Positions 6,401 through 38,173 of a DNA stretch of 60,182 bases are shown here, in pieces; the first letter of the stretch is position 1, and each line of letters starts with the position of its first letter. The notes beneath the pieces are model-generated. The model made no database searches. It worked only from the letters and a program-made list of their open reading frames with translations, and had not been told where the DNA came from. This stretch comes from Fibrobacterota bacterium. Lineage in GTDB: Bacteria; Fibrobacterota; Chitinivibrionia; Chitinivibrionales; Chitinispirillaceae. The stretch covers positions 1-60,182 of the forward strand of contig PLTF01000029.1 in NCBI GenBank assembly GCA_003164335.1, given 5' to 3'. The position numbers and the translations under genes were made by a program.

Positions 6401-6866
6401 GGAATCGGCTTCGAATATCCTTGAAGCTGCAAAGTGTGCGCCGAATACCCCGGCATTGGAACGCGATGAAAAGCACCACGAGTTGGTATCTATTGCCGCC
6501 AAGCATGCCCTGTCAAGTGAAAAATCAGTCGGTGGTAACCTCGGCAGCCGGCGCGGAGCGCGTTACCGAACTTATGAGCAGCTCAAGGAGTATCTACGCA
6601 CCCTGGGCGATAAACGCGATCTTTTTATAAGCGAAGAATTTATGAATAAACTTGAACGCGTTATCGATGAAATACACCGAAACCGTTTAACCAACGAATC
6701 TATAGATATCCTGAATCAGGCATTGAAAACCAGTATTTCCGATAATGATCTTGCCACGCTCGTCATCCGGTTCAAGGATGAGGAACGACTTACCGAAAAG
6801 GCTGATGAAACCGGCTCCCATCAGGCACAAATCATCTGCTCCATGGGCTTGATTGCGAAACTGTAA
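3444..6866 (+). CDS. SNF2-family helicase with N-terminal phospholipase D-like domain
   Basis: A 1140-residue protein. The N-terminal part contains one PLD (HKD) motif, H138-x-K140, followed by GFLGSSNLTLSGL. An SNF2/superfamily 2 motor follows: Walker A GDVVGLGKT (K289), DESH box at 356-359, LLSATPYN (S387), FTQFADT in motif IV, and QRAGRVDRIGQ from residue 834 in motif VI. All core ATPase motifs are intact. PLD-SNF2 fusions accompany methylases in restriction-like phage defence systems, where the motor translocates on DNA and the PLD domain may act as a nuclease. The gene starts an operon; the methylase begins 12 bases after its stop. Confidence 0.9.
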   Translation: MPRIFDNIELELLPALQETLPLSNKSDFCIGYFNLRGWRLIDGYLDHFKGGADNICRVLIGMQRLSQEDINTLYSIVEGEPVSQGKSEPLKKRIAEAFREQLASGAPNNQDETGLRRLAAQIRAKKVAVKLFFRHTLHAKLYLLYRHDPNNPIIGFLGSSNLTLSGLKDGGELNIDVLDHDAARKLEKWFNDRWNDRFCVDISEMLASIIETSWAREQKIPPFHIYMKIVYHLSQDAIAGVSEFKVPRDFLDNPDQKLFAFQTIAVQIAARYLYKRNGVLIGDVVGLGKTLMASAVCRIFQDVYHTETLILCPKNLKKMWKNYMRTYRMLGDIISTSEIKADFAKKTPRYRVVLVDESHNFRNSEGKRYKAIQEYIAKNDSRCILLSATPYNKTYLDLSGQLRLFIPEDKNLGIRPERKIKEVGELQFEGEHQCKPHSIAAFEKSGYADDWRDLMRLYMIRRTRSFILEYYTLTEEGTGRKYLLLADGEKSYFPTRIPKTIKFNIDEKDPNDPYARLFSPAVVNTINGLELPRYGLGNYEEPREKTKPNHAEEKLLNDLSTAGKRLMGYCRTNLFKRLESGGPTFIQSIERHVLRNFVFVYAIENGKEVPLGTQDAEMLDSRINDQDDNSLSSELFDLESEGGDICAEKKEQLLTEDDFRKRAEIVYKEYKGQYKNRFEWLRANLFESNLLQSLLTDARALLKLHKSFGVWKQENDAKLNALHELITVTHKNDKILIFTQFADTVDYLVSALELRGVADLEGVTGHSEDPTMMAWRFSPVSNEKKSIASDDYISADDELRVLVTTDVLSEGQNLQDCNIVVNFDLPWAIIRLIQRAGRVDRIGQLSEQIWCYSFLPATGIEKLINLRGRVRQRLHENAQVVGADESFFEDFEEQKILDLYHEKSGILDEEKDDDNDPTSMAFQIWKNALEKDKSLLRIVQDLPNVAFSAKAYKQAPTNPEGVIVYMKTGEGNDALVRIGKDGSIASESASNILEAAKCAPNTPALERDEKHHELVSIAAKHALSSEKSVGGNLGSRRGARYRTYEQLKEYLRTLGDKRDLFISEEFMNKLERVIDEIHRNRLTNESIDILNQALKTSISDNDLATLVIRFKDEERLTEKADETGSHQAQIICSMGLIAKL

Positions 6867-6878
6867 GGAGATTGTTTT

Positions 6879-9800
6879 ATGGCTTTAAATAAGGAACGTG
6901 CGCGCAAATGTCTGAAAAATTTTGCATTCAAAGAGCTTTTTATCGAAGAACTCGGCTGGGACCCGTATGAAGCGCGGCCGCTTCATGTCTCTATCGACGG
7001 CTCAAATTATTCATTGACCGGCCTTGTCGAGAAGCGCGGCATGGTGGTATTTCAGTGCTCTCCTGACAAGCGGGGCGCAATTCCTGATTCGGCCGTCCGC
7101 CGAAAGATTGATAATCAGGTCAGGAAATCGTCGGTAGAGCATATCGTCATCTATGCCGATGCCGCAAAGACTCGCCAGAAGTGGCAATGGCTGAGGCGTG
7201 AAAAGGGGAAACCGCTTGCATCTCGCGAGCATGAGTTTACCCTCTCTCAATCCGGTGAAGCATTGTTGCAGAAACTTTCCCATCTCGAAATAGGCATCGA
7301 GGAAGAGAGCGATATCACCATCTTCGGGGTCGTTTCTCGGGCTAAAAGCGCCTTTGATGTCGATAGGGTTACAAAGAAATTCTATGAGCGGTTCAAAAAA
7401 GAGCATGCCGTTTTTCTCAAATTCATTAAAGGCATTACCGGGCAGGCCGACCGCGAATGGTATGCATCGCTCATGCTCAACAGGCTCATGTTCTGCTACT
7501 TCATCCAGAAAAAATGCTTTCTTGATGGGGACGATAACTATCTCCGAAACCGTCTTGAAATGGTACAGAAGAAAAAGGGAAAGGATAAATTCCTCAATTT
7601 CTACCGGCATTTTCTCCTCAGGCTCTTTCATGATGGGCTCGGAAACCGAGAACATTCTCGCGAGCTCGATGAGCTTATCGGCAGGGTGCCCTACCTCAAT
7701 GGCGGGTTTTTCGATGTCCATAAGCTGGAAGAGCAATACCCGGAGATTGAAATATCAGACAGCGCTTTCGAAAATGTTTTCGATTTCTTTGATGATTTTC
7801 ATTGGCATCTCGATGACCGCCCGTTGCATAAAGATAATGAGATCAACCCGGATGTTCTGGGGTATATCTTCGAGAAGTACATTAATCAGAAACAGATGGG
7901 CGCCTACTATACGAAGGAAGATATTACCGGCTACATAAGCAAAAACACGATTATCCCCTGGCTATTCGATGCAGCAAAGAAGAGGTGCGCGATAGCATTT
8001 CAACCGGCATCGAGCCTGTGGAGGTTGCTGAAAAACAATCCGGATCATTACCTTTATCCCGCAATGCGGAGAGGGGTTATTGCCGATACAGAAGACGTCA
8101 CTGCCGGTCGTGCATCAAGGCCCGGTGAAATAATCCCGCTTCCGAAGCAGATTGAGGCAGGTGTAAAAGAGGTTTCAAAACGGGGGAACTGGAACACGCC
8201 ATGCAGCGACGGCTATGGACTGCCGACCGAAATCTGGAGGGAACATGTCGCGCGGCGCGAACGCTGCCTGGAAATCCGGAATAAAATGCAGGGTGGCGAA
8301 ATCTCTGCGATCAACGATCTCATCACTTATAATCTCGACATAGTCCAATTCGCCGAGGATGCAATTCATAATTGCGAAGGTCCGGAGCTTTTACGGGCAT
8401 TCTATGACGGAATCACTTCGATTAGCATTCTCGACCCTACCTGCGGATCGGGCGCGTTCCTCTTTGCCGCGCTCAACATCCTTGAAGAGCTCTATGCTGC
8501 CTGTCTTCAGAGGATGAAGAATTTTGTTGAAGATGCAGACCAGCTTGACCCTGGTAATAAGAAATATCCTGATTTCCGAAAACATCTTGATGAAATGGCG
8601 AAACATCCGGGCGACTACTTCATTTATAAAACCATCATTATCAACAATCTGTTCGGTGTGGATATCATGGAGGAAGCCGTAGAAATCTGCAAACTTCGGC
8701 TCTTTCTCAAGCTCGTCGCTCAGGTCGATACTGCCGGGCAAATTGAACCGCTGCCGGATATCGACTTCAATATCAGAGCGGGGAATACACTGGTGGGATA
8801 CGCCTCTGTTGAGAACTTCAAAAACCAATCATTGTCAAACGCTTTCGTCTCGGAAAAAGAATATGATTCGATTATTGAAGAGGCAGAGAAAATCGGCATG
8901 GCGTTCGAGAACTTTAAATCCGACCAGCTTGAAGACCGGGGGCATGAAAGCCACCATAAGGCGAAGAAACGGCTCAATGAAGAACTTGAAAAGCTGAATA
9001 ACCGCCTTAATCGGTTTCTTGCGGTGTCATATCTTGGATCGGATTTTTCAGATACGAAATTCAGTGGCTGGGGAAAAACGCACCAGCCGTTCCATTGGTT
9101 TGTAGAGTTCTATGAGAAAATGCATCGAGGCGGTTTTGATGTGGTGATAGGGAATCCACCCTATGTTAAAACAGCTAAAATAGATTATTCATTTAACGAG
9201 CAAGGTTATAAGTCCCTTGCCGGTCGCAATATATATAGCCTCGTTATTGAGCGGTCATATTGTATCGGTTCAGGCAAATCTTATATGGGCATGATTACAC
9301 CGGTCAGCATTTGTTCAGGCTATGGTTTTACAGAAATAATGGATTTATTATTTACTAAAAAAGCCTGGTTATCTTCTTTTTCAAATCGTCCTGGAAAATT
9401 GTTTGATGGCGTTGAACAAAGATTAACTGTTTTTATATCTTCTCGAATTGAACAACCGTGCCTCACATCGCCATATCAGCATTGGTATTCCGAAGAAAGA
9501 AGTACATTATTTGATAGATTATCATTTGTAGAAGCTCCAAAATTGGGTTTGATTCCTTTGAAAACGGGTTTGCCGATAGCCAATAATATTCTTCTAAAGA
9601 TTATTGGGGCAAAAAGAAGCATTCAATTAATTCAGGGAAATAGTGGAGAATGTTGGTTCCATGATGGGCCAACATATTGGATAAGAAGCCTGCCATTTTA
9701 CCCTTCCGGGAATGCAAGTGCTAACTCATCACATTATCATTGCATAAAGGGAAATTGTTTGGATTCTGCATATCTTATTACTTCGATTATAGCGTCATCA

Positions 9801-10142
9801 ACTTTTTACCTATATTATAAAGCAATGAGTAATTGCAGGGATTTCGGCAATGAGAACATTAATGCTTTCCGAATAAATGACAATCCTCCGGACTTCTCTA
9901 CAATAGTTAAAGAGTATAAAAAGCGATTGAAATCAACATCTGTGAAATGCTCTCGTACGTATCCATCAGGCGATATCGAATATGATGAATATTACCCTGC
10001 AAAAGCAAAGGATATTATTGATCAGATCGATATGCTTCTCGCCAAGCATTACGGTTTCACCGCTGAAGAGCTCGATTTTATTATCAACTATGATATCAAG
10101 TATCGTATGGGGGATGAGCTGGAAGGGAGTGCTGAAGAATGA
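6879..10142 (+). CDS. Eco57I-type N6-adenine DNA methyltransferase
   Basis: A 1087-residue protein preceded by AAGGAGA. It has the hallmarks of a gamma-type adenine methylase: QMGAYYTKEDITGYI at about residue 338, SAM motif I DPTCGSG from residue 519, and catalytic motif IV NPPY at 759-762. The long N-terminal and C-terminal extensions resemble type IIG and BREX PglX-like enzymes, with the specificity domain after NPPY. The segment encoding the likely target-recognition domain (about 9170-9960) is clearly AT-richer than the rest of the gene, and the last 150 bases return to the GC-rich style. The stop overlaps the RT start (ATGA at 10139-10142). Inferred role: host DNA protection paired with the upstream helicase. 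Confidence 0.9.
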   Translation: MALNKERARKCLKNFAFKELFIEELGWDPYEARPLHVSIDGSNYSLTGLVEKRGMVVFQCSPDKRGAIPDSAVRRKIDNQVRKSSVEHIVIYADAAKTRQKWQWLRREKGKPLASREHEFTLSQSGEALLQKLSHLEIGIEEESDITIFGVVSRAKSAFDVDRVTKKFYERFKKEHAVFLKFIKGITGQADREWYASLMLNRLMFCYFIQKKCFLDGDDNYLRNRLEMVQKKKGKDKFLNFYRHFLLRLFHDGLGNREHSRELDELIGRVPYLNGGFFDVHKLEEQYPEIEISDSAFENVFDFFDDFHWHLDDRPLHKDNEINPDVLGYIFEKYINQKQMGAYYTKEDITGYISKNTIIPWLFDAAKKRCAIAFQPASSLWRLLKNNPDHYLYPAMRRGVIADTEDVTAGRASRPGEIIPLPKQIEAGVKEVSKRGNWNTPCSDGYGLPTEIWREHVARRERCLEIRNKMQGGEISAINDLITYNLDIVQFAEDAIHNCEGPELLRAFYDGITSISILDPTCGSGAFLFAALNILEELYAACLQRMKNFVEDADQLDPGNKKYPDFRKHLDEMAKHPGDYFIYKTIIINNLFGVDIMEEAVEICKLRLFLKLVAQVDTAGQIEPLPDIDFNIRAGNTLVGYASVENFKNQSLSNAFVSEKEYDSIIEEAEKIGMAFENFKSDQLEDRGHESHHKAKKRLNEELEKLNNRLNRFLAVSYLGSDFSDTKFSGWGKTHQPFHWFVEFYEKMHRGGFDVVIGNPPYVKTAKIDYSFNEQGYKSLAGRNIYSLVIERSYCIGSGKSYMGMITPVSICSGYGFTEIMDLLFTKKAWLSSFSNRPGKLFDGVEQRLTVFISSRIEQPCLTSPYQHWYSEERSTLFDRLSFVEAPKLGLIPLKTGLPIANNILLKIIGAKRSIQLIQGNSGECWFHDGPTYWIRSLPFYPSGNASANSSHYHCIKGNCLDSAYLITSIIASSTFYLYYKAMSNCRDFGNENINAFRINDNPPDFSTIVKEYKKRLKSTSVKCSRTYPSGDIEYDEYYPAKAKDIIDQIDMLLAKHYGFTAEELDFIINYDIKYRMGDELEGSAEE

Positions 10143-12955
10143 TCCATGCCAGTTCATCTATTGAAGACGACCTATCCAAGGCTATTGATTTTCTTCTCTC
10201 TGAAGCCTATTACGAGCAGGTTGACTTGTTTTTTCGATTTCAATGCTGTAATGATATTTTTAACAACCTAAATAAAAGAAATAATTTCAAGCTTCGCTGC
10301 CTGCAATTTCTTGATGATTTTTCAACCAACCCAGACTCCCAAAACATTTGGGATCTACTTGGCCAAATCCATTATAGAATAATTCCAAAATCTCTTAAAT
10401 CAGAATCCAATGAAGACAGCGGAGGCGGTAGGTGGATCTCGAATCACAGAACGCAAGATAAATACCACATTGATCAGATTGATCTATTTATTGATTTGCC
10501 ATTAGAGTTGCGGGTATTAGATGTACTTTGGTGTATGCATGTCGGTCGAAGAATTAATAAAAAACTAACAGATAATTGTTATGCTAACCGATTATCTCGA
10601 CCTACTCATACTAAGCTGTTTAGATTATATTTTGACCAATATAAAAAATGGAGAGATACGGGATTAAAATATGCAGAAATAAGCCTTGAAACTGGCAGTA
10701 GCGTTGTCCTGCTTTCAATGGACATTTCACGTTTTTTTTATAATGTTGACGTTAATTGGAATCAGATATTTAGAAATACTTATGATGATTATGAAAAATC
10801 ACTTTGCTATCTCCTATTAAGAATTCATGAATGTTACTTCAGGGCATGTTCTCCAATATTAGCAGCCAGCGGTATCGAAATCCCCGAGGATAGAGATGGA
10901 TTGCTGCCAATCGGGCTTCAAAGTTCAAAAATACTTGCCAATCTTTCGCTACATCAATGGGATCAATCGGTAGTTCGCAAGCTTAACCCCAGATATTATG
11001 GCAGATATGTTGATGATATGCTTTTTGTTTTTGATAACCCTCCCCGCAGAAGCGCTAAAAGCATAGGCAATATAATAGATAATTATTTTATTGAAACTGG
11101 AATCCTAAGGAAAGATGCTGATACTGCCAATACTTATATACTCACAGGAATGCCTTTTAAAATAAAATCTGAAAAGCTGGTTGGTACATTTTTCGATCGG
11201 GATCACAGTTGGGCGGGATTAAAATCATTCATTGGGGAACTCCGGCGGCACAATAGCGAATTTCGATTTCTACCGACCGATGAGCAAGGAAGAGAGCTCG
11301 AAACGGCCGCTTTCGATATTTTGATGGAGGGCTCGCTGAATAAATTCAGAAGTATTTTAGCTGTTCGCGAAAATGGGATGGAATTATCGAAATTTCTTTC
11401 AAGCGAGATTATAGCTCACAGGTTATCGGCGGGAAAATTATCTGAGACAATTCGGAAGCAACTATCTCGATTCTGGCAGGGAAGAAATCTGTTTGATTTT
11501 ATCAGGCTTTGGGAAAAGCAATTTACGCTTTTGTTCATTAAACATGAGAAAGAATACCTACAGCAATTTTGGAATCAAACGGAAGAACTCATATTGAATT
11601 TGATGCATAATGATAGGTCGATTTTAAAAGTGATACGAAAAGATGCAAAGGAACTAAGAAAGATAGCTTTCGCAAATATGCTTTCATTAGAAAATCAAGA
11701 AGAGCTAAACAATTGGGTGCTGGAGGTGGATGATTTTCCTGAGGATACTGTTCAATATGCCGCTAAAGTCCGGCAGGGCCATTTCTCTCGGGCGCAATAT
11801 ATTGTATGGCCATTTTTGCAGTTCTCAAGGTTCAACGGCAACTTGGCGCAACTTGGAATTTCTGCTGTTCTAGAATATTTGGCTCGCCGGCTAAGCAGGC
11901 CACTATCAAAATTTCGGTATATATATAAAGATGAGGAAGATTTATTTACCATTTTAAAGGCCGTTTCAAAATCTCAACCGATTCTAACGATGTTCGGTGA
12001 ACCTGACAGGTTAGAGTCAAAAATTAATCCTGAAGATAGCATTCCTATAAAGATAAGTATTCCCGATGAATATGATAAAGGTGAAAATGGAATTACGATA
12101 GGTGTTGCAAATTTGCGTGTTCTTAAAAAAGACATTGAAGCATCCTATGAACTCCCCCACGGAAATCCAAATTTGAGCGATACTCGTTGGAAAGAGCTTT
12201 CAAAATTGCTAAACCTTGCCAAGAAAGAGAATTGTGATTTATTGATTCTTCCTGAGGTCTGCATACCGTGGTCATGGTTTCCACTTATGATCTCATACGC
12301 CAGGAAGCAAAAGATCGGACTAATATTTGGGCTAGAACACATCGTTGTTCAAAAAGATAGCCAGCATTCGGTTAATAACGTTGTTGTAGCAGCTTTGCCT
12401 TATAAAGAGGATGGGATTAACCAATGTGCTGTTGTTGCCCGGACCAAGAATTATTATTCCCCACATGAAATCGATGCATTCAAAGAATTGGATATTTTCC
12501 CTGTCGTCCCGGAAGCCCCGAACTATCATTTAATTCATTGGAAAGGTGTTGTATTTACGATATTCAATTGTTACGAGCTCACAGATATCTTCCACCGGGG
12601 CGTCTTCCGTGGCAAAATTGATGCCCTTTTTGCTGTGGAATGGAACCAAGATATCCCATATTTTTCAAATATTGTCGAATCAGCAGCAATTGATATTCAT
12701 TGCACTATTATTCAGGCCAATACATCAGAATTTGGTGATTCCAGAGTTTTTTCTCCCGTCCACGGGGAGCATGATAGGAACATCATTCGTGTAAAGGGTG
12801 GTGACAACATTACGCTATTAAAAACGAGACTTCTTTTTGATGAACAGCGTGAGTTCCAGAAAGGGGCAATCTCCGTTAAGAAGAGCAAATTTAAACATAC
12901 TCCTGCTGGATTTAAATACCAGCGTGGCAATGAATACCTTAATATCAACAGATGA
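10139..12955 (+). CDS. Reverse transcriptase fused to nitrilase (DRT1/UG1-like defence RT)
   Basis: A 938-residue protein. The RT palm is intact: motif A SMDISRFFYNVD (D195), motif B LPIGLQSSKILANL, and catalytic YVDD at 290-293. There is no group II intron maturase or endonuclease domain. After a helical linker comes a complete carbon-nitrogen hydrolase (nitrilase) domain with a Glu-Lys-Cys triad: E706 in ILPEV, K770 in TKNYYSPHE and C811 in NCYEL. This RT-nitrilase arrangement is known from the UG1 group, the effector of type 1 defence-associated RT systems. Here the start codon overlaps the methylase stop by four bases, so the two are probably translationally coupled. The base composition is AT-rich like the methylase specificity region. 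The biochemical role of the nitrilase is unknown. Confidence 0.88.
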   Translation: MIHASSSIEDDLSKAIDFLLSEAYYEQVDLFFRFQCCNDIFNNLNKRNNFKLRCLQFLDDFSTNPDSQNIWDLLGQIHYRIIPKSLKSESNEDSGGGRWISNHRTQDKYHIDQIDLFIDLPLELRVLDVLWCMHVGRRINKKLTDNCYANRLSRPTHTKLFRLYFDQYKKWRDTGLKYAEISLETGSSVVLLSMDISRFFYNVDVNWNQIFRNTYDDYEKSLCYLLLRIHECYFRACSPILAASGIEIPEDRDGLLPIGLQSSKILANLSLHQWDQSVVRKLNPRYYGRYVDDMLFVFDNPPRRSAKSIGNIIDNYFIETGILRKDADTANTYILTGMPFKIKSEKLVGTFFDRDHSWAGLKSFIGELRRHNSEFRFLPTDEQGRELETAAFDILMEGSLNKFRSILAVRENGMELSKFLSSEIIAHRLSAGKLSETIRKQLSRFWQGRNLFDFIRLWEKQFTLLFIKHEKEYLQQFWNQTEELILNLMHNDRSILKVIRKDAKELRKIAFANMLSLENQEELNNWVLEVDDFPEDTVQYAAKVRQGHFSRAQYIVWPFLQFSRFNGNLAQLGISAVLEYLARRLSRPLSKFRYIYKDEEDLFTILKAVSKSQPILTMFGEPDRLESKINPEDSIPIKISIPDEYDKGENGITIGVANLRVLKKDIEASYELPHGNPNLSDTRWKELSKLLNLAKKENCDLLILPEVCIPWSWFPLMISYARKQKIGLIFGLEHIVVQKDSQHSVNNVVVAALPYKEDGINQCAVVARTKNYYSPHEIDAFKELDIFPVVPEAPNYHLIHWKGVVFTIFNCYELTDIFHRGVFRGKIDALFAVEWNQDIPYFSNIVESAAIDIHCTIIQANTSEFGDSRVFSPVHGEHDRNIIRVKGGDNITLLKTRLLFDEQREFQKGAISVKKSKFKHTPAGFKYQRGNEYLNINR

Positions 12956-13006
12956 TTTTAGGTCTGCTCTTTGCTCTGTATTGAGCTGCAGGCACTACGG
13001 CACGCT

Positions 13007-13480
13007 ATGAATTCACTTGGCAACCCTGGCATCCTTAAAAACCATAAGACCGCCTTCCTCTGCTCCAGGCGATATCCTGCAAGTATTGTCTCCAAAGCTT
13101 ACGATTGGGCTATAGCGCAGCGTGAAGCCGGTAACTGCATCATCTCCGGTTTCCATTCGCAGATTGAAAAGGATGTATTTCATTTCCTGCTTAAAGGAAC
13201 GCAGCCTATAATCATGGCACTTGCGCGAGGCCTGCCTCGGCGACTCGACCGGATTTTGAAAAAAGAAATAGATAACGAACGGCTGCTTCTGGTGACGCCA
13301 TTCGAAAAATATTTTACAAGAGTCACGGTGGAAACGGCCTTCCGGCGCAACAAATTCATGTTGGAGCTTGCGGATGAAATCGTTGTTGCTCATGCTTCAG
13401 CCGGCGGGCGGCTGGAAAAGCTGTTGCGGCAGGTGAAAAATAAAGAAATTCGAGGCCTTGTGGACGATTCCCGCCGATGA
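13007..13480 (+). CDS. DprA/SMF-like (Rossmann) protein of the defence operon
   Basis: About 157 residues from ATG 13007, or 169 from a TTG at 12971; the TTG is preceded by a weak TAGG and lies 15 bases after the RT stop. The visible core, TAFLCSRRYPASIV, then GNCIISGFHSQIEKDV and PIIMALARGLP, matches the Rossmann fold of DprA/SMF-like DNA-binding proteins. The family is much shorter than true DprA and is often found beside methylases and helicases in defence islands. The late segment keeps RNKFMLELADEIVVAHA, the nucleotide-binding-fold signature of the family. Its function in these systems is not established. It could sense or bind single-stranded DNA, which is inference. Confidence 0.7.
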   Translation: MNSLGNPGILKNHKTAFLCSRRYPASIVSKAYDWAIAQREAGNCIISGFHSQIEKDVFHFLLKGTQPIIMALARGLPRRLDRILKKEIDNERLLLVTPFEKYFTRVTVETAFRRNKFMLELADEIVVAHASAGGRLEKLLRQVKNKEIRGLVDDSRR

Positions 13481-19732: not shown

Positions 19733-19773
19733 ACACCACCGGGCCTTGTTAAGTAGGCATGGAAGGCGAAAAT

Positions 19774-20190
19774 ATGGAAAATTCACAAGCTGATAAAAAA
19801 AAATGCAAGGGCGCGAAGCCGGACGGATCGTGCTGTACCGTCGCGGCGCTTCCGGGGTCGGATTTCTGCTTTTTCCATGACCCGGCAAGGGCGGGCGAAC
19901 GGCAGGAGGCGCAAGCCTTGGGAGGTCGCCGTCACTGCATGAAAACGCTCAATGCCGACGCGCCGGACGTGAAGGTCGAAGATTGCCAGGACGTGCGCCT
20001 GCTTATCGCCGAAACGATCAACCAGGTCAGGAAAGGGGCAATCGATCCGCGTGTCGCTAACGCGGTCGGATACCTTGCGAACGTGTTTATTAAGGCGGTC
20101 GAACAAGGGGACCTTGAAAGCCGCCTGAAGGAAATTGAGGCAATCGTTAAAAACCAAAGGTCATCTTCCGAATTAAAGGTGGAAATTTAA
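19774..20190 (+). CDS. Small Cys/His protein of phage type, unknown function
   Basis: About 138 residues from ATG 19774, chosen because GGAAGGCG lies before it; an ATG at 19759 is also in frame. The N-terminus contains C-K-GAKPDGSCC and then LPGSDFCFFHDP, a Cys-His motif found in small phage-borne proteins that often sit near terminase or replication genes. The C-terminal half is helical. The start of the next gene is 2 bases after its stop. The role is not known. Confidence 0.6.
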   Translation: MENSQADKKKCKGAKPDGSCCTVAALPGSDFCFFHDPARAGERQEAQALGGRRHCMKTLNADAPDVKVEDCQDVRLLIAETINQVRKGAIDPRVANAVGYLANVFIKAVEQGDLESRLKEIEAIVKNQRSSSELKVEI

Positions 20191-21477: not shown

Positions 21478-22539
21478 ATGGGAATAGAACGAATGCATAA
21501 CACATACAAGGTGAAGGCACGGCTCCGCATAAACGGAAAGATCGTGCAAAAGCAATGCACCTTGATCGGCGGGACCCGTGAAGAAGCAAAAGCCCTTTTC
21601 GAAAAGATGAAGGCCGGGCTTCGGGCGGAAGATGCCGGGCGCTCTTTGACAATCAAAAGTTTTGGCGAAATACTTGCGATTTTTAGGGAAAAGCGAAACA
21701 AGGTTTCAGCATCGGATGTATCGCGGTGCAACATGCTCGCCGCCGAACTTGGCGATATACCCTTAAATGGCTTCGCGGATTCTTTTGAAGGATACTTAAA
21801 AGTATTTAGAAACAGTCCAACGAGGAAAACAGGGGAACCGCCATGCAATGCCTCGGTAAACCGGATTATTGAGATTGTCCGGGCAGCGTTCAACCTATGC
21901 CTTGAATTAAACCTTGTTAAAGAGAATCCTATCACAAAAGCGCGTTTCCCGAAGGCGAAAGAGCGACCAAGAGACCGCTATTTGAATATAGAGGAGCGGC
22001 AGCGTCTTTTTAATGCAATCGAGAAGCATTTCCCGTATCTATTGCCCTTCATTCGGTACTCAATTCTTGTGCCCTCGCGGAAAAGCGAATTAACGCAACT
22101 GTCACGGGAAGCGTATAATGCATTCACGAATACGGTCTACATCCCGACCAGCAAAGCCGGAATACCGATTTATAAGCCGGTGCCTGATGAAATGAGGCCA
22201 TACTTTCTGAATGGTATTCCGAAGGAATGTCCATGGCTATTCTTCCGGCAAGATAAGAGCGGCAAATTCCACTCTCTCGGCGATTTTAGAAAAGCCTTCC
22301 GGACGTGCCTGAAGATGGCGGGACTATCCAATGTTCGGGTCCATGATTTGCGCCATGTTGCTGCGAGCGATCTTTGCGCTCTTGGGAATAGTGAAAGGGA
22401 AATCATGGACATCGCCGGCTGGAAAACTCCAATGCTTTCGACTTACTGGCATAAAAACAGTTTGCGGAGCGCTCAAGCTATACGGTTTCAAGGTCACTGT
22501 GAAAACAGGTGTGAAAACATTCAGGTCGCAGTGGTGTAA
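21478..22539 (+). CDS. int: Tyrosine integrase of the defence-carrying element
   Basis: A 353-residue protein with TGGAAGGA before the ATG. The N-terminal arm-binding segment (YKVKARLRINGKI) is followed by a SAM-like core-binding domain and a catalytic domain. Visible catalytic residues are Arg I in LVPSRKSELTQL, HDLRH for the His-x-x-Arg box and the nucleophile Tyr in STYWHKNS. The usual second His appears as Trp (IAGWKT), a substitution seen in some active integrases. The gene ends 51 bases before a tRNA(CAU) 3' fragment in the same direction, so this tRNA is its probable attachment site. Confidence 0.9.
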   Translation: MGIERMHNTYKVKARLRINGKIVQKQCTLIGGTREEAKALFEKMKAGLRAEDAGRSLTIKSFGEILAIFREKRNKVSASDVSRCNMLAAELGDIPLNGFADSFEGYLKVFRNSPTRKTGEPPCNASVNRIIEIVRAAFNLCLELNLVKENPITKARFPKAKERPRDRYLNIEERQRLFNAIEKHFPYLLPFIRYSILVPSRKSELTQLSREAYNAFTNTVYIPTSKAGIPIYKPVPDEMRPYFLNGIPKECPWLFFRQDKSGKFHSLGDFRKAFRTCLKMAGLSNVRVHDLRHVAASDLCALGNSEREIMDIAGWKTPMLSTYWHKNSLRSAQAIRFQGHCENRCENIQVAVV

Positions 22540-22664: not shown

Positions 22665-22700
22665 GGCGGTGGAAGAGATCATCTTCTGCCGCCTTTTTTA
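22665..22700. terminator. Intrinsic terminator between convergent integrases
   Basis: GGCGG-tg-GAAGA pairs with TCTTC-tg-CCGCC around GATCA, followed by TTTTTT on the + strand. It lies just after the tRNA fragment and overlaps the end of the minus-strand integrase gene. It would stop read-through from the left element and perhaps served the original tRNA. Confidence 0.8.
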
Positions 22701-23821
22701 TTTTGGCCATTATCCCGGCCATGGTCGAGGTACGTTGAAGCTACCGCTGCCTCCAGGTCACGGCGCTGATAATGAGTGTAATAATCATCCATGGCATCGG
22801 TACGATGACCAAGCATCTCCTTTGCGATCTCCTTGCCGGCTGCTGCCCGGAATACGAGTTTTGCCTTTTTCCGGGAGTCATGGAACCAGCGGTGCTCCCA
22901 CCCCGCCGCCTCCCGCAGGCCCGAATTCCGCAGAAGTTTATACGGGGGCGCTTTGACGGACCACAGCTGCCCGGCGGTTCTTTCACCGATTTGAGCTGCA
23001 AGGGCTGCAGCGCACCGGGCTGAAAGCGGCCGCGGCTTGCGCATAACCCGCTTTTGTTTGCTTACCGTCACCATGAGGTAAGGCAGACCTTCTCCGGGGT
23101 GGAGGACTATGTCTTCAATCTGTAAACCCATGACCTCGCCGACCCGCAGGCCGCTTTCCCAGACGACAACGAAGAGTCGGCGGATCCAGTCCGGCAGGCC
23201 CAGTTCAAACGAGGCGATAATGATCTTTTCAAGGTCGTTTTCGGTTGGGACGTAATCCATGACCCTGATTCCCCGATCGATACGAACCAGCTGGCATGGA
23301 TTATGCAGCGAAAGGCGGCGGAACCGGATCCAGTGATTGATTGCCGCGCGAACAATGATGAAGTAGTTGTACCGGTATTTCGGAGACCACCCGTCGAGAG
23401 GAAAATTCCGGAAATGGTTGACGATAAGGGATGGATTCCGATCGATCGTTTCCAGCCGCCAGTTCCCGATGAGCTTTTTTGCATGAGCGCCCATGCACCG
23501 CGCCGATGCTTCGCCGCGTCTCCCCACCATGACCTCTGACAAATAGGCATCGATAATCGCTGCCATGGTCGCCCTGCGTACGTGGCGATCGTCATAGACA
23601 CCTCGCTCAATTTCCGAGAGGCGCATGGCTTCGAACCGTCGGGCTCCATTTTTTGTCTGATAGTCGGGCGGACATTTCTCGCAACGCAGCCGGCCGTTGA
23701 CGTAATATTGGATAAACCAATCCGGCTTTCGTGTGGAAAGCTTTCGGATACGATTCAGGAGTGGACCTCCGGCGGCAAGCATGCACTCGCGGATGCGTTT
23801 CCTGGTGTTATCGTAGATCAT
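22679..23821 (-). CDS. int: Tyrosine integrase of the second element
   Basis: A 380-residue protein from ATG 23821, chosen because AGGAG lies six bases before it and it then overlaps the excisionase-like gene by only 14 bases. The full catalytic set is visible: Arg in VWESGLRVGEVMGL, HDSR for the His-x-x-Arg box, LGH for the second His, and Tyr in DDYYTHY. An N-terminal two-cysteine segment (RCEKCPPDY) is present. It converges on the other integrase, with the tRNA fragment between them, which suggests both elements use the same tRNA. Confidence 0.88.
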   Translation of the reverse strand: MIYDNTRKRIRECMLAAGGPLLNRIRKLSTRKPDWFIQYYVNGRLRCEKCPPDYQTKNGARRFEAMRLSEIERGVYDDRHVRRATMAAIIDAYLSEVMVGRRGEASARCMGAHAKKLIGNWRLETIDRNPSLIVNHFRNFPLDGWSPKYRYNYFIIVRAAINHWIRFRRLSLHNPCQLVRIDRGIRVMDYVPTENDLEKIIIASFELGLPDWIRRLFVVVWESGLRVGEVMGLQIEDIVLHPGEGLPYLMVTVSKQKRVMRKPRPLSARCAAALAAQIGERTAGQLWSVKAPPYKLLRNSGLREAAGWEHRWFHDSRKKAKLVFRAAAGKEIAKEMLGHRTDAMDDYYTHYQRRDLEAAVASTYLDHGRDNGQNKKGGRR

Positions 23822-24086
23822 CGGGCGCTCCTGTCTTGAGGAAAAGTTCCCCCGACCGAGCCTGCCGATCGCAACAAAAAACAGCTTCGGACGGGACCCC
23901 TGCTTCAACCTGGGCAAGTCGTGCGCGAAGATCGTCGCCATTAATCAGAATAATGCTTCCGATTTTCGCCCCTTTCAGAATTCCGGCATGGAAATAATAC
24001 CGCGCCGTAACTGCCGGAATACCGAAGGCCTGCTCGATCTCCGCCGGCCGGTAATACTCTTTTTTCATCGCATTCATAACCGCCAC
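23808..24086 (-). CDS. Excisionase-like HTH protein
   Basis: A 92-residue protein with a MerR/AlpA-type N-terminus: YYRPAEIEQAFGIPAVTARY, then GILKGAKIGSIILINGDDLR. Its stop overlaps the integrase start by 14 bases on the same strand, consistent with an excisionase-integrase pair. The C-terminal 35 residues look unstructured. Confidence 0.65.
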   Translation of the reverse strand: MAVMNAMKKEYYRPAEIEQAFGIPAVTARYYFHAGILKGAKIGSIILINGDDLRARLAQVEAGVPSEAVFCCDRQARSGELFLKTGAPDDLR

Positions 24087-30558: not shown

Positions 30559-31731
30559 ATGTCTAACGACCTCAGTAAGCTCCAACCGCTGCTCTTCAGC
30601 GCGGCGCAGACCATCGCCAACGAACCCACGGCGGTGCTTGAAGCCATTTCCAATACGTTTGACGACAAAGGTGTTGCAGTCGGAGATAAGGTCATTATCC
30701 CGGTCGCTCCGCCTGCGCAGCTGGACGCCTTTGTTCCGTCCAACATTCCCCCCAGCGGCGACAATGCGGTGGCCACCAATGTATCGGTAACCATCACCAA
30801 CTCCAGCAAGGTTTGTTGGAACCTCACCGGTGAGCAACAGCGCTCTCTCGAAAACGCGACCATCGATACCGAATGGATACGGCAGATGATCGAACAGGGT
30901 ATGCGAACGCTGCGGAATGATGCCGAAGCCAAAGCCTGGGCGGCTGCTCTCAATGGCGCATCCCGCGCGGTTGGAACGGCTGGACAAACGCCTTTCCAGA
31001 ATACCACCGGCACCTCGGTTTACTACCAGCTCAATGCCCTCGCAGCTGCCAAAAAGGTGATGCTGGATCAGGGTTGCCCGGATGCGGGTCTGACGGCGAT
31101 CATCGATACCAATGCCGGACTGAACCTCCGGCAGCTCGGTGTTTACCAGAACTTCTACCAGGCCGGAACCGACAAGCAGCTCCGCCAGGGCATGTTCCTG
31201 CCTGCCTTCGGAATTTCCATAGCGGAATCGGCACAGGTGGGTTATCATACGGCGGGAACCGCGACGAGCGTCACGACCAACGATACCGTTGATGCGCTCA
31301 ATGCTCAGACCATCGGTATCACCGGAACCGGGATAAGCCTGAGCCAAAATGATTTCGTGAGCTTCGGTACGACACCGGCAACCGCGGCGTATCAGGTGAC
31401 GAATGCCACGGCCCTGACGGGTGCGGGCAATATTCTCCTGAACCGTCCGGGAATAGCGAAGGTTCCGCTTGCCACCGGCATGGCGGTAACATGCGCGGGT
31501 TCCTACACCGGAAATATCGTGCTCGAAAAGAGTTCCGTTGTCGGCTGCATCCGGCCCCCGATCATCCCGGACAACCCCACCATCCAGCAGCTCAAGATCG
31601 GCGATCAAAAAACCGGCCTGACCTTCCTCATGTTGGACATTGCTCAGTACGGACAGCGAACCTGGGAGTTGCATCTCGCCTATGGATTCGCGGCGGTCCA
31701 ACCGGCTTTCATCTGTGCGCTGTTGGGGTAA
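30559..31731 (+). CDS. Major capsid protein, P22 coat-like
   Basis: A 390-residue protein with GGAAAGGAAG upstream. The N-terminus (FSAAQTIANEPTAVLEAISN), a region with WNLTGEQQ followed by ENATIDTEWI, and the helix NDAEAKAWAAALNGA match the P22 gp5-type variant of the HK97 fold. The middle part (residues 220-320) is rich in Thr, Gly and beta strands, as expected for an inserted domain. It forms the capsid shell. P22-like coat in a long-tailed phage is uncommon but known. Confidence 0.8.
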   Translation: MSNDLSKLQPLLFSAAQTIANEPTAVLEAISNTFDDKGVAVGDKVIIPVAPPAQLDAFVPSNIPPSGDNAVATNVSVTITNSSKVCWNLTGEQQRSLENATIDTEWIRQMIEQGMRTLRNDAEAKAWAAALNGASRAVGTAGQTPFQNTTGTSVYYQLNALAAAKKVMLDQGCPDAGLTAIIDTNAGLNLRQLGVYQNFYQAGTDKQLRQGMFLPAFGISIAESAQVGYHTAGTATSVTTNDTVDALNAQTIGITGTGISLSQNDFVSFGTTPATAAYQVTNATALTGAGNILLNRPGIAKVPLATGMAVTCAGSYTGNIVLEKSSVVGCIRPPIIPDNPTIQQLKIGDQKTGLTFLMLDIAQYGQRTWELHLAYGFAAVQPAFICALLG

Positions 31732-33712: not shown

Positions 33713-34783
33713 ATGGCATATAAACAGTTAGATATTCTCTTCGGAGCGGCGGAAACGGGCCTCACGGGTGGGCCGATGGACATTTCCCTTGCAACTCCAA
33801 CGGCATTATCATCGCCGTTTACTCCGGCTTCAACCTCAGCGAATAAGGCAAATTTCCTTCAGGTTTCCGACGGCTTCAGTCTGGACATCCAAAACGAGAT
33901 GACAGCCCAGAAGTTCGCAACCGGAGCCTTCGACCAGCACGGAAGCGTACCGGGCACGATCAGCGCGGAAGCGAAGATAACGACCTATTTGAAATCGGCG
34001 GGACGCGGAACAGCCGACGCCTTTGCAGCATACCTCGCAGCATGCGGCATGGCTATTACGGAGAGTGCTGCGGGCGGCGAGGGAGGGTCAGGCAACCCGG
34101 CCATTTATGTTCCTTCCTCCGATTACGCTACCGCATGGAACCCGATGACGCTTTGGAAATACACCGGGGAAACCACAGCCAGTGGCAGCTATCTCTACCA
34201 GGCGAATGGAGTGCTGTTCAATGGCGTGCTGAAGGGCGAAATCGGCAAGCGCTTCCAGCTCGATCTTACGGGTAAGGGTGCGGTGAATAATCTTCCGGAC
34301 CTTGCGACGTATCCGACCGGACCCTTTACGCAGCTTTCCGACGTCAACCCCTCAGTCATGAAGGCCTCGGCCACAACGATTCTGGGAGCGACTTACCGGA
34401 TGCTTTCCTTTGAATTCGACTTCGGCAACAAGGTCGAATTGATAAAGGATATGACGGCGACCTACGGATTCGCGCGAGCGGATATTACGGACCGTGCGGC
34501 AAAATGGAAATGCAAGATTTTCGAGTCTCCCTATACCGGAGAAGGCAACACGAATTTGTATACGGCAATGCAGGAGCAAACCACCTTCGACATTTCCTTT
34601 GCATTTGCGCTGACTGCCGGGTTCGGAATCACCATTTCCACCGGGTACAGCACCACGGCCCCGCTGGCGGCAAATGCTGCGCAGCTCACCAAGGTCGTAC
34701 CGGGCAACGAAAACGCCCTGAACACCTGGGAGCTTGAGGGCATCATCGTCGGCAACAACTGGGCGCTGCAAACCAGCGTATAA
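33713..34783 (+). CDS. Major tail tube protein
   Basis: A 356-residue protein with AAAGGAAGG upstream. It is beta-rich and low in charged helices, with the Gly/Thr-rich character of phage tube subunits (e.g. GVLKGEIGKRFQLDLTGKGA). It is the highest-expression style gene, followed by the chaperone pair and the tape measure, which is the canonical tube-chaperone-tape order. It stacks as rings around the DNA channel of the tail. Confidence 0.65.
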   Translation: MAYKQLDILFGAAETGLTGGPMDISLATPTALSSPFTPASTSANKANFLQVSDGFSLDIQNEMTAQKFATGAFDQHGSVPGTISAEAKITTYLKSAGRGTADAFAAYLAACGMAITESAAGGEGGSGNPAIYVPSSDYATAWNPMTLWKYTGETTASGSYLYQANGVLFNGVLKGEIGKRFQLDLTGKGAVNNLPDLATYPTGPFTQLSDVNPSVMKASATTILGATYRMLSFEFDFGNKVELIKDMTATYGFARADITDRAAKWKCKIFESPYTGEGNTNLYTAMQEQTTFDISFAFALTAGFGITISTGYSTTAPLAANAAQLTKVVPGNENALNTWELEGIIVGNNWALQTSV

Positions 34784-35011: not shown

Positions 35012-35080
35012 CCACGCGAGACCACCTTGGGGGCGGCAGCTGTCGCCCCCGAATTCTACAGAGCCGGGGAGGGCTTTAAA

Positions 35081-35410
35081 ATGATTCCATTGAGCATGAG
35101 ACAGAAGACGGTTATCTTTACCGATGACGACGGTATTGTCTGGAGATTCGCCGTGAAGACGGGCGACAGTGAACTCCGGCTCATCCAGAGTTATGAGGCG
35201 GCAAAGGGCGACACCGGGGAATGGATCAGGAAGCAGATTGACCTGTTTAACGAGATCGTTCAGGGCTGGGCAGCGCCGTCAGGTTCGGCCATGGCAGCAT
35301 TCCCGGGAGATGGCAACCCCGCCGCTTTGTTCACGTCGATGGAGCGCGCGGAAGTGTTTTCGCTCTGGCACAAGGCCAATAGCCTCTCCGTCGAGCAAAA
35401 AAAAAGCTGA
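35081..35410 (+). CDS. Tail assembly chaperone, short form (gpG-like)
   Basis: 109 residues from ATG 35081 (GGGGAGGG before it). The gene ends in GAG-CAA-AAA-AAA-AGC-TGA. Its place between tail tube and tape measure, its small acidic/helical product and the slippery A-run at its end all match the gpG-type tail assembly chaperone. Ribosomes that slip -1 at the A-run continue to 35802 and make the long form of about 240 residues. Confidence 0.75.
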   Translation: MIPLSMRQKTVIFTDDDGIVWRFAVKTGDSELRLIQSYEAAKGDTGEWIRKQIDLFNEIVQGWAAPSGSAMAAFPGDGNPAALFTSMERAEVFSLWHKANSLSVEQKKS

Positions 35411-35438
35411 TTGTCGCCGTCGGGCTCATGTATGAGCC
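35398..35438 (+). promoter_or_regulatory. Programmed -1 frameshift site
   Basis: Nine A at 35397-35405 supply a slippery A-AAA-AAA in the zero frame, four bases before the TGA at 35408-35410. A hairpin, GGCTCA-TGTA-TGAGCC at 35423-35438, lies downstream and could stimulate slipping. In the -1 frame the next codons (LIVAVGLMYEPHS) read straight into the downstream frame. Confidence 0.75.
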
Positions 35439-35802
35439 GCACTCGAAGATTTTCGATTGCAGCTTTTGCGCGGCAAGCGACAAAAAGGAGTATGGGTGCA
35501 AGCGTAATCGGCGTATAGCCATCCATAAATTCAACTGCTCATGTGGCGGGCAAAAGGGATGCGATATATGCAAGGGGCATGGGTTCTTCAAGCTGAAGCG
35601 TTGTCCGGTGAAGTATTCGGAGGACTCCCAAACGAGAACGATCCTGCCCTATTTTTTCGCCTGGAAAAATGGCAATGAGTTCCCGGACGGCCGGGCGCGG
35701 CTCGACCAGCCGGTGACGCTCTTGCAGGCGTTTAACATTCTTAATGCGATATGCAACAAGCTCGACTCCGAGGCAATGGAGCGGGCGAGGAATAAAAAAT
35801 GA
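35404..35802 (+). CDS. Tail assembly chaperone, frameshift extension (gpT-like)
   Basis: About 132 residues in the -1 frame, read only as the C-terminal part of the long chaperone. An ATG at 35428 has no ribosome-binding site, supporting expression through the frameshift. The extension carries several cysteines (CSFCAAS, then CSCGGQKGCDICKGHG), a zinc-ribbon-like cluster uncommon in known gpT parts. In lambda the long form binds the tape measure and tube subunits. Its stop overlaps the tape measure start (ATGA). Confidence 0.7.
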   Translation, partial: KLIVAVGLMYEPHSKIFDCSFCAASDKKEYGCKRNRRIAIHKFNCSCGGQKGCDICKGHGFFKLKRCPVKYSEDSQTRTILPYFFAWKNGNEFPDGRARLDQPVTLLQAFNILNAICNKLDSEAMERARNKK

Positions 35803-37949
35803 GCGACGAAAACAAAATTGAAGTACCCATAGGCGCAAAAAACGATTTAAGCTCGGTGTTTGCACAGCTGAAAAAGGAAGCACAGGAAGCTTTTCAGCAA
35901 ATGGGGAACGATGCGAAATCCGGTGCTGCTCAGGTTGTCGGCGCTACCGGCGATATAGAGGGTGCGACCAAGAAGGCAACGGCAGCGGTAAAAGAATCGC
36001 AGCTTTCAATAGCCAACATAGCGACGGAGATTAAGAGCAATTTCACCAACGCGATCAAGGGCGGCATCGTCGGCATGGTTGGCTTTGCGGCCGCTATGAA
36101 AATAAAGGACAAAATAATAGCTCTACATGATGCCAATCAAAAGCACAATACTATCGTTATGCAACTCACGGCTTCACTCGGATATTATTCAAGGGCACTA
36201 AACGAACAGGCTGAGGGATTAGAAAAATCAAAATTCGTTGAAAAGGATGAGATTCTTCAAGCGGATCAGCGGTTATCGAATTACTTTAAGGAAGAATCGC
36301 AAATAAAGGCGCTCATACCCGCTGTCCTTGATCTTTCCAAAGCTAAGGGCATTGATCTTGCCTCGGCTGCTAACCTTGTTGCTGTAGCATGGCAAAAAGG
36401 AGAAAACGCGGCAGATAAAGATGAAGCCGGGGTCGGAAGGTTAGGCATCCAATTTGAAAAGACCGGGCATGATGCGGAAGACCTCACAAATCTTGTTGAC
36501 GCACTTAATAAAAAATTCGGGGCACAATCACAGGCAGTAGCAGATTCCCTTGATGGATGGAGTAAACTATCCTTTTGGTGGAAGGCTGAGAACAAGAATT
36601 TAGGAGAACAGATTTTCGGGTATAGCAAAGCAGAGCAAGCGGCAAAGGTTTACGAGGCCCAGGTTCGTGCCCTTGCACAAGCAGAGCAGACATGGGGAGA
36701 AAAGCTTACCGATAATATCAGCACCATGTATCACGTTCATGGACAGGAATCAGTAGATATTACTGTGGGGGGGATTAAGCAGGCCATAAAGGCTTATGAT
36801 GATGAGGAATTTGCTTTGAGTCATGTGGCCCTCGCGGCGGCAGCGGCAGATAAGGCACTTGCAAATTATAATTCATCAATTTCTATAGCCGGGACGTCTA
36901 CCTCAGCATTCAATATGCTTTCCAATCCTAACGGACCAGGTGGCGCAATATCTCCGGGAACACAAGAGCAGATAGATAAAACTAATAAGTTGCAAGAAGA
37001 ACAAGGGAAAAATGCCGCCGAACAGGCGCGCAAAGCCGCCGAAGAAATCCGCACCGTTCAAAAGGAGCTTATCACCGCGCAGGAGATCGACGGGCAAACC
37101 GGCTATGCAAAGCAGCGGGCGGAACTCGAAGCGCATTATATCGAGGAACAGCAGGAATATGCGGGCAACGCAAAGGCCTTGGAGATAATCAACACAAAAC
37201 ATTATTACGATGAAGCGAATTTAGAGGCTGCGCATGATGCTGAGACATTGAAAAATCAGCAGGAAACCAATAAGAAGGCCGAGGAAGAGGCGAGCCGAAC
37301 CAAAAAGGAGCAAATCAGCACGCTCGAAGAACAGATCAGAGAAATTGACAGACAAACGAGGGAAGCGGATCGCACCATAAAGGAATATTGGGATGCGCTC
37401 AAAAGGGATAATCAGGAAAAAGTAAAAGACTGGACCAAGATGGGTGATGAGGTCGGGGCCGCATTGGCGAAGGGAATCTCCGGCGGTAAGGGCGGCATGA
37501 AGGCTGCTTTCAAAGAAGTGCTGAATATCGAACTCGACTTTCTTGAAAAGAAACTGCAATCGACGATCATTGCTCTTACCTTGGGAGATATCACAAAACT
37601 CGGATGGTTCGGGCTCGCTGAGGCAGCGGTTGAGGGGGCGGCGATCACGGGGATATTTGATGTCGCCAAATCAAAAATCTCCGCCTTCGCCCTCGGTACT
37701 GACTACGCTCCGGGCGGCCCGGCCATTATTAACGAGCGCGGGCCGGAAATGGTGAATCTTCCCCGCGGCACGCAGGTTTACAACCACACACGGACGTCGA
37801 ATATGACGGCGAACTCCGGGCATACCTTCAATATCCACGTTCACGACGCCCAGGGAAACATTCTGGAAAGCGCGACCGCGGCAATCCGCAGCGGTGGCGC
37901 GGAGCGGTTCGTATCGACCCTGAACGAGCACCTGCAGGGGCTGAACTGA
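35799..37949 (+). CDS. Tape measure protein
   Basis: A 716-residue protein that starts inside the last codon of the chaperone. It has long charged helical stretches, a hydrophobic segment (GIVGMVGFAAAMKIKD, about residues 88-104), a coiled coil from residue 400 to 545, and a C-terminal region with a second hydrophobic patch and FALGTDYAPGGPAIINERG, a motif common at tape measure C-termini. It is short, so the tail should be short for a siphovirus. Tape measures set tail length and pass through the tube on DNA entry. Confidence 0.8.
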   Translation: MSDENKIEVPIGAKNDLSSVFAQLKKEAQEAFQQMGNDAKSGAAQVVGATGDIEGATKKATAAVKESQLSIANIATEIKSNFTNAIKGGIVGMVGFAAAMKIKDKIIALHDANQKHNTIVMQLTASLGYYSRALNEQAEGLEKSKFVEKDEILQADQRLSNYFKEESQIKALIPAVLDLSKAKGIDLASAANLVAVAWQKGENAADKDEAGVGRLGIQFEKTGHDAEDLTNLVDALNKKFGAQSQAVADSLDGWSKLSFWWKAENKNLGEQIFGYSKAEQAAKVYEAQVRALAQAEQTWGEKLTDNISTMYHVHGQESVDITVGGIKQAIKAYDDEEFALSHVALAAAAADKALANYNSSISIAGTSTSAFNMLSNPNGPGGAISPGTQEQIDKTNKLQEEQGKNAAEQARKAAEEIRTVQKELITAQEIDGQTGYAKQRAELEAHYIEEQQEYAGNAKALEIINTKHYYDEANLEAAHDAETLKNQQETNKKAEEEASRTKKEQISTLEEQIREIDRQTREADRTIKEYWDALKRDNQEKVKDWTKMGDEVGAALAKGISGGKGGMKAAFKEVLNIELDFLEKKLQSTIIALTLGDITKLGWFGLAEAAVEGAAITGIFDVAKSKISAFALGTDYAPGGPAIINERGPEMVNLPRGTQVYNHTRTSNMTANSGHTFNIHVHDAQGNILESATAAIRSGGAERFVSTLNEHLQGLN

Positions 37950-38173
37950 TGATGTACCTTTGCGACAGGTCGAACACTTGCAAATTCGCACTTCTGGATT
38001 GCCATGGCTTTTGCCAGCAACTTCAGGAAAAATGCCCGATAATGATGATGTGCCCTTTGTCAGTTTCATGCAATCGCATGTGCTACCACAACGACACGCC
38101 GCACCCATTCGCAAGCGATTGCACAGGGCTTGAGGAAAACGGTTGCCCGGCATGCGTGAAGGTGGGCCCATGA
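37949..38173 (+). CDS. Cys-rich small protein of the tail module
   Basis: A 74-residue protein starting on the tape measure stop (TGATG) and ending on the next start (ATGA). It has about eleven cysteines in 74 residues, with no signal peptide. It may bind metal. Tight coupling with both neighbours suggests a tail assembly role. Confidence 0.55.
   Translation: MMYLCDRSNTCKFALLDCHGFCQQLQEKCPIMMMCPLSVSCNRMCYHNDTPHPFASDCTGLEENGCPACVKVGP

Follow-up and report, generated by a model that had tools for sequence, protein, structure and literature searches.

In the lambda model, as described in PMC5009743, the tape measure protein is coated by G, and tail tube subunits are brought in by GT, the less abundant of the two. 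For the Rhodobacter phage RcZahn, a frameshift of this kind was reported to lack clear evidence (PMC8601537). Here we analysed a 60,182-nucleotide stretch of a Fibrobacterota bacterium (contig PLTF01000029.1; hereafter the window), in which a prophage very probably encodes a gpG/gpGT-type chaperone, with −1 slippage at A_AAA_AAA giving a GT protein whose Cys-rich T part probably binds zinc. Frameshifting of this kind is well established, and the novelty lies in the Cys-rich T family. The elements of the locus are as follows:

35066–35073, forward strand: Shine-Dalgarno-like ggggaggg of G, read directly and of good quality
35081–35410, forward strand: G, short form of the tail assembly chaperone, 109 aa (ATG 35081, TGA 35408–35410)
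35397–35405, forward strand: run of nine A
35398–35404, forward strand: slippery heptamer A_AAA_AAA, in phase with G and with equivalents in all relatives
35404–35802, forward strand: T extension, the −1 frame part of GT, 132 aa from the shifted codon AAG (35404)

The G open reading frame ends in GAG CAA AAA AAA AGC TGA, so the stop begins 4 nt past the heptamer, as a sequence-only reading of this DNA had stated. The −1 frame is free of stops across 35383–35802, overlaps G by 28 nt and, counted from AAG at 35404, bears out the 132 codons and the 240-residue length claimed in that reading: the predicted GT fusion comprises 108+132 = 240 aa, with the junction peptide ...SVEQKKKLIVAVG.... By chance, 132 stop-free codons are expected with P ~0.008 (first-order model) and a heptamer in the 28-nt overlap with P ~0.013. 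However, in-phase XXXYYYZ heptamers are fairly common across the window (51 in 11,776 codons), so a single site means little by itself and the weight comes from relatives. A second nine-A run with an in-phase A_AAA_AAA lies at 19795–19803, near the start of the open reading frame 19759–20190.

The genes around the locus were assigned as follows:

21478–22539, forward strand: tyrosine integrase at the left end of the prophage
22679–23941, reverse strand: second tyrosine integrase, convergent with the first
26834: portal
29669: scaffold
30559–31731: major capsid protein (phrog_283; P22-coat-like)
31620: neck
33713–34783, forward strand: probable tail tube protein, 356 aa, called by position (17–21% identity to the same-position genes of relatives)
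35799–37949, forward strand: tape measure protein (phrog_19914, tail length tape measure, E 2.3e-11)

The resulting order is tail tube, small open reading frame, G, GT and tape measure, with the TGA of T overlapping the tape measure ATG (35799), and the predicted neighbouring genes fit a long-tailed prophage. The tail tube call follows the same-position genes of JP1 and RcTiptonus, which are annotated as tail tube. The small open reading frame preceding G shares its position with relatives, and no convincing sequence similarity was found there. The major capsid protein is 46% identical to that of Synechococcus phage Ssp-JY42. Relatives of the chaperone, in contrast, come from phages of Alphaproteobacteria, a combination that indicates a mosaic genome. 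A 74-aa open reading frame with 11 Cys and no Pfam match (37949–38173), whose start overlaps the tape measure stop, would be another protein rich in Cys close to the chaperone. Adjoining the prophage is a defence island, which contains an RT_UG5-nitrilase defence reverse transcriptase (10139–12955; a very strong match, E 3e-198), a type IIG restriction-methylase adjoining it (6879–10142; E 7e-304), an SNF2/PLD-type helicase (3444–6866) and a PsyrA-like gene (12971–13480).

The series of relatives was opened via the Agrobacterium phage JP1, a weak match (E=1) in the right genomic place. It comprises the annotated phages JP1, L338C, RHph_I4, RcTiptonus (with three near copies), RcZahn and RHph_TM16, together with five IMG/VR sequences, three more distant (L014, L016 and L019) and two closest to the window (L020 and L022). 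L020 was reached via its tape measure protein (33% over 716 aa), and the pair with L020 then yielded L022. Scanning viral and genome contigs with single window proteins yielded no close relatives, or spurious ones, and two candidates (L003 and L004) were rejected as chance matches. When 168 genomes from the host phylum were searched with a profile, only the window itself matched, and a second genome scan with the A10 pair found nothing.

Every relative combines a frame resembling G with a −1 frame rich in Cys. The T frame lies directly before the tape measure gene in the window, L020, L022 and most relatives, including the annotated phages; in L338C it lies one open reading frame earlier, and the TM16 locus is cut by the end of the record. 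Exactly one in-phase canonical heptamer occurs per overlap in 10/10 distinct loci including the window: A_AAA_AAA in the window, L020 and L022; A_AAA_AAC in JP1, RcZahn, RHph_TM16 and L016; A_AAA_AAG in RcTiptonus; and G_GGA_AAC in L338C and L019, as also in I4. The chance of such a heptamer is 0.002–0.05 per locus, the loci being not fully independent of each other. As a positive control, the same rule returned the known GGGAAAG of lambda in the same phase. Applied to HK97 it showed no canonical site in the right place, and thus the rule misses some real sites.

Between the window and L020, 26 nt are identical across the slip site. L020 is 64% identical to the window in G and 59% in T, and L022 35% and 49%, respectively. 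The run stays at exactly nine A in all three while its flanks vary. In L022 the second frame opens just 3 nt ahead of the heptamer and is therefore hardly reachable other than at this site. Comparison of T between the window and L020 gave a dN/dS of ~0.33, a rough value with dS near saturation, and third positions vary most in both frames; this pattern fits purifying selection on the second frame. A break at an error-prone nine-A run could also arise from a sequencing or assembly indel that split one 240-aa gene. The same break, however, occurs in two separate metagenome contigs, and other relatives break likewise at GGGAAAC or A6C/A6G sites, which in practice refutes a sequencing error and leaves this explanation with a very small probability.

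We also considered whether the second frame is a separate gene, started at an ATG or by coupled reinitiation after the TGA ending at 35410. An in-frame ATG is present at 35428, 18 nt beyond the G stop, coupled reinitiation occurs across such distances, and most relatives are annotated as two genes. Against this, the ATG has no Shine-Dalgarno sequence upstream and is absent as a start codon in L020 and L022. Moreover, no ATG, GTG or TTG lies in the second frame ahead of the first CxxC in L020, L022, L014 or RcTiptonus, and the conserved KLIVAVG/KLILAAL segment directly follows the slip site, upstream of ATG 35428. An independent start is thus largely refuted by the start codons of the relatives and the position of this segment, and we regard it as very unlikely. 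The sequence-only reading had described the second frame as having no start signal of its own; this stands for the Shine-Dalgarno sequence and for any conserved start, but not for the ATG, which exists. That reading had also named conserved independent starts in relatives, in the absence of a slippery site, as the pattern that would speak against it, and the relatives display the opposite. The gpG/gpGT mechanism it proposed is upheld by the gene order, the heptamer at ten loci, the purifying selection and the lack of a conserved second-frame start, and on these grounds we favour −1 frameshifting.

The shift could in principle take place during transcription, with RNA polymerase slipping on the nine-A run so that the mRNA gains one A. 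At exactly nine A in the window and in both L020 and L022, the run exceeds what a heptamer requires, and its flanks vary. Transcriptional slippage is documented elsewhere, for example in IS elements and Thermus dnaX (PMC5009743). On the other hand, relatives use A6C, A6G or GGGAAAC, which are ribosomal-type sites devoid of a long run, and the tandem in-phase AAA codons with a stable structure at 6 nt fit the ribosome. Transcriptional slippage in place of ribosomal slippage is accordingly an unlikely source of GT; it is conceivable in the window clade, and the A6C, A6G and G3A3C sites of the family, as read from their sequences, point to the ribosome.

The sequence downstream of the heptamer was predicted to form one larger structure:

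35411–35483, forward strand: predicted branched RNA fold, starting 6 nt after the heptamer and including the hairpin 35423–35438

Its closing helix pairs UUGUCGC (35411–35417) with GCGACAA (35477–35483), and the 86-nt stretch 35405–35490 has a folding energy of −33.8 kcal/mol (z −3.13 versus shuffles). The downstream hairpin invoked in the sequence-only reading does exist, as GGCTCA-TGTA-TGAGCC at 35423–35438, but the 41-nt stretch that holds it folds no more stably than shuffled sequences (z −0.27) and GGCTCA/TGAGCC is not kept in L020, where the fold differs in detail. The z-score of the downstream fold is −2.84 in L020 and −1.2 to −2.9 in the other relatives, and the structures differ between loci. 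A structure downstream of the slip site is therefore likely, while its form, as modelled, appears not to be conserved; stimulatory structures at this place are frequent, though not universal, in gpG/gpGT-type systems.

Homology of the T frames was supported from both directions. A profile of six phage relatives, built with the window left out, found the window T as the best of 818 frames (E=1.7e-9; next E=1.2), and hhalign gave a probability of 96.6%. In the reverse search from the window clade, the T frames of seven relatives took the top places out of 998 frames, and five passed the inclusion threshold (reciprocal 7e-8). Neither T nor G had a meaningful match in Pfam, PHROGs or NCBIfam, and a sequence search of the PDB likewise gave nothing meaningful. 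The structure model of G (pLDDT 58, low confidence) contains helices in addition to a beta hairpin; the top-ranked PDB entry was 2ob9, the HK97 tail assembly chaperone, a match that was not significant (E 1.2, TM 0.38). A BFVD search with the same model returned several matches named tail assembly chaperone, none significant.

The Cys residues of T fall into two elements:

35458–35604, forward strand: Cys domain with a putative zinc site (C19, C22, C32 and C67 of T conserved family-wide)
35536–35583, forward strand: insert of the window clade, CxC...CxxCxGxG, a DnaJ-like motif (C45, C47, C53 and C56)

C19, C22, C32 and C67 are invariant, as counted in the window and six phages, although the T domains are otherwise only ~20–35% identical. 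In the MAFFT alignment, L014 and L016 are out of register, but L016 still has four Cys in the order CxxC...C...C. All eight domain Cys are kept in L020 and L022. Spacings such as CxxC and CxxCxGxG typify structural zinc sites, and the cytoplasm, where an assembly chaperone works, is reducing. From the spacing and conservation of its Cys we infer that T binds zinc, the four-Cys constellation being probably a structural zinc site; the CxC...CxxCxGxG module of the window clade would, judged from its motif, be a second one of zinc type. The "zinc ribbon" of the sequence-only reading is one of its weaker parts: there is a Cys pattern and no Pfam zinc-ribbon match, nor did T match any zinc-binding family model in Pfam or NCBIfam. 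As for the two zinc-knuckle Cys pairs on beta hairpins that such a ribbon would have, a CxxC plus GC and C are conserved in the sequence. The insert does not qualify as a DnaJ-type zinc domain, whose mark is four CxxCxGxG repeats: it has one CxxCxGxG and one CxC only, and no Pfam match. Together with an AlphaFold model of T that is unusable (pLDDT 46), the missing family match leaves room for a fusion that is made as proposed but whose Cys form disulfides or bind another metal. The invariance of the four Cys in otherwise diverged domains, their zinc-typical spacing and the reducing cytoplasm speak against this, and we consider it fairly unlikely. Among open-access papers, judged mostly by title and abstract, few mention these terms and none appeared to describe zinc or cysteine in GT chaperones.

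Both frames, the in-phase site, its conservation, the gene order, the selection and the homology are observed; the slippage itself, its rate and the partner proteins belong to the following proposal. Most ribosomes would stop at TGA 35408 and release G (109 aa), the presumed coat of the tape measure protein. On A_AAA_AAA, a smaller share would move back by one base, aided by the nine-A run and the predicted RNA structure starting 6 nt downstream, and continue to the end of GT (240 aa); its C-terminal T domain is expected to bring in the tail tube protein. A bolder version, to which we give little credence, is that the Cys-rich T domains are a so far overlooked family of tail-assembly initiators that depend on zinc, and that, in the window clade, the nine-A run sets the G:GT ratio by combined polymerase and ribosome slippage, one site using both routes.

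To a well-studied case of programmed frameshifting, the locus contributes a GT extension of a Cys-rich type absent from the catalogues, and with it the prediction that a tail assembly initiator contains zinc. The Cys-rich T occurs in the window prophage and in phages that infect Agrobacterium, Rhizobium and Rhodobacter, with no other carrier found in the host class or phylum. It also corrects annotations: in JP1, L338C, I4, RcTiptonus, RcZahn and TM16, two separate proteins would instead be G and a GT fusion. Compared with gpG/gpGT of lambda, the window shares the order tail tube, G, GT and tape measure, the in-phase heptamer near the G stop and the overlap of the T stop with the tape measure start. 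It differs in the site (G_GGA_AAG in lambda versus A_AAA_AAA within nine A) and in the T part, which has 9 Cys in the window, 0 in lambda and 1 in the TP901-1 counterpart; no sequence similarity to the lambda system was found. The Cys-rich extension, called unusual in the sequence-only reading, is thus unusual against lambda but typical of the window phage's own group. HK97 gp13 (2ob9) is linked to G as the best, non-significant PDB match of its model, and the HK97 annotation includes a −1 frameshift product. The closest relatives, L020 and L022, share the nine-A run and the eight domain Cys; they differ in having no ATG in the second frame ahead of the CxxC. JP1 (JP1_031/JP1_032) shares the order before the tape measure gene, an A_AAA_AAC site and a Cys-rich −1 frame with 32% identity in T, but has four Cys only, a longer G and an A6C site; both its genes are annotated as hypothetical, and the annotation misses the frameshift and places the start of JP1_032 ~160 nt late. 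The Rhodobacter phages RcTiptonus and RcZahn share the arrangement and the Cys domain, with A_AAA_AAG and A_AAA_AAC in phase, and differ in carrying the four-Cys core only. In RcZahn, the A_AAA_AAC (MW677529.1 23927–23933; 2956–2962 in our extracted locus L008) lies in phase near the end of gene 27 and leads into the Cys frame annotated as gene 28; at the sequence level, this heptamer and the Cys frame are the frameshift evidence that was reported missing.
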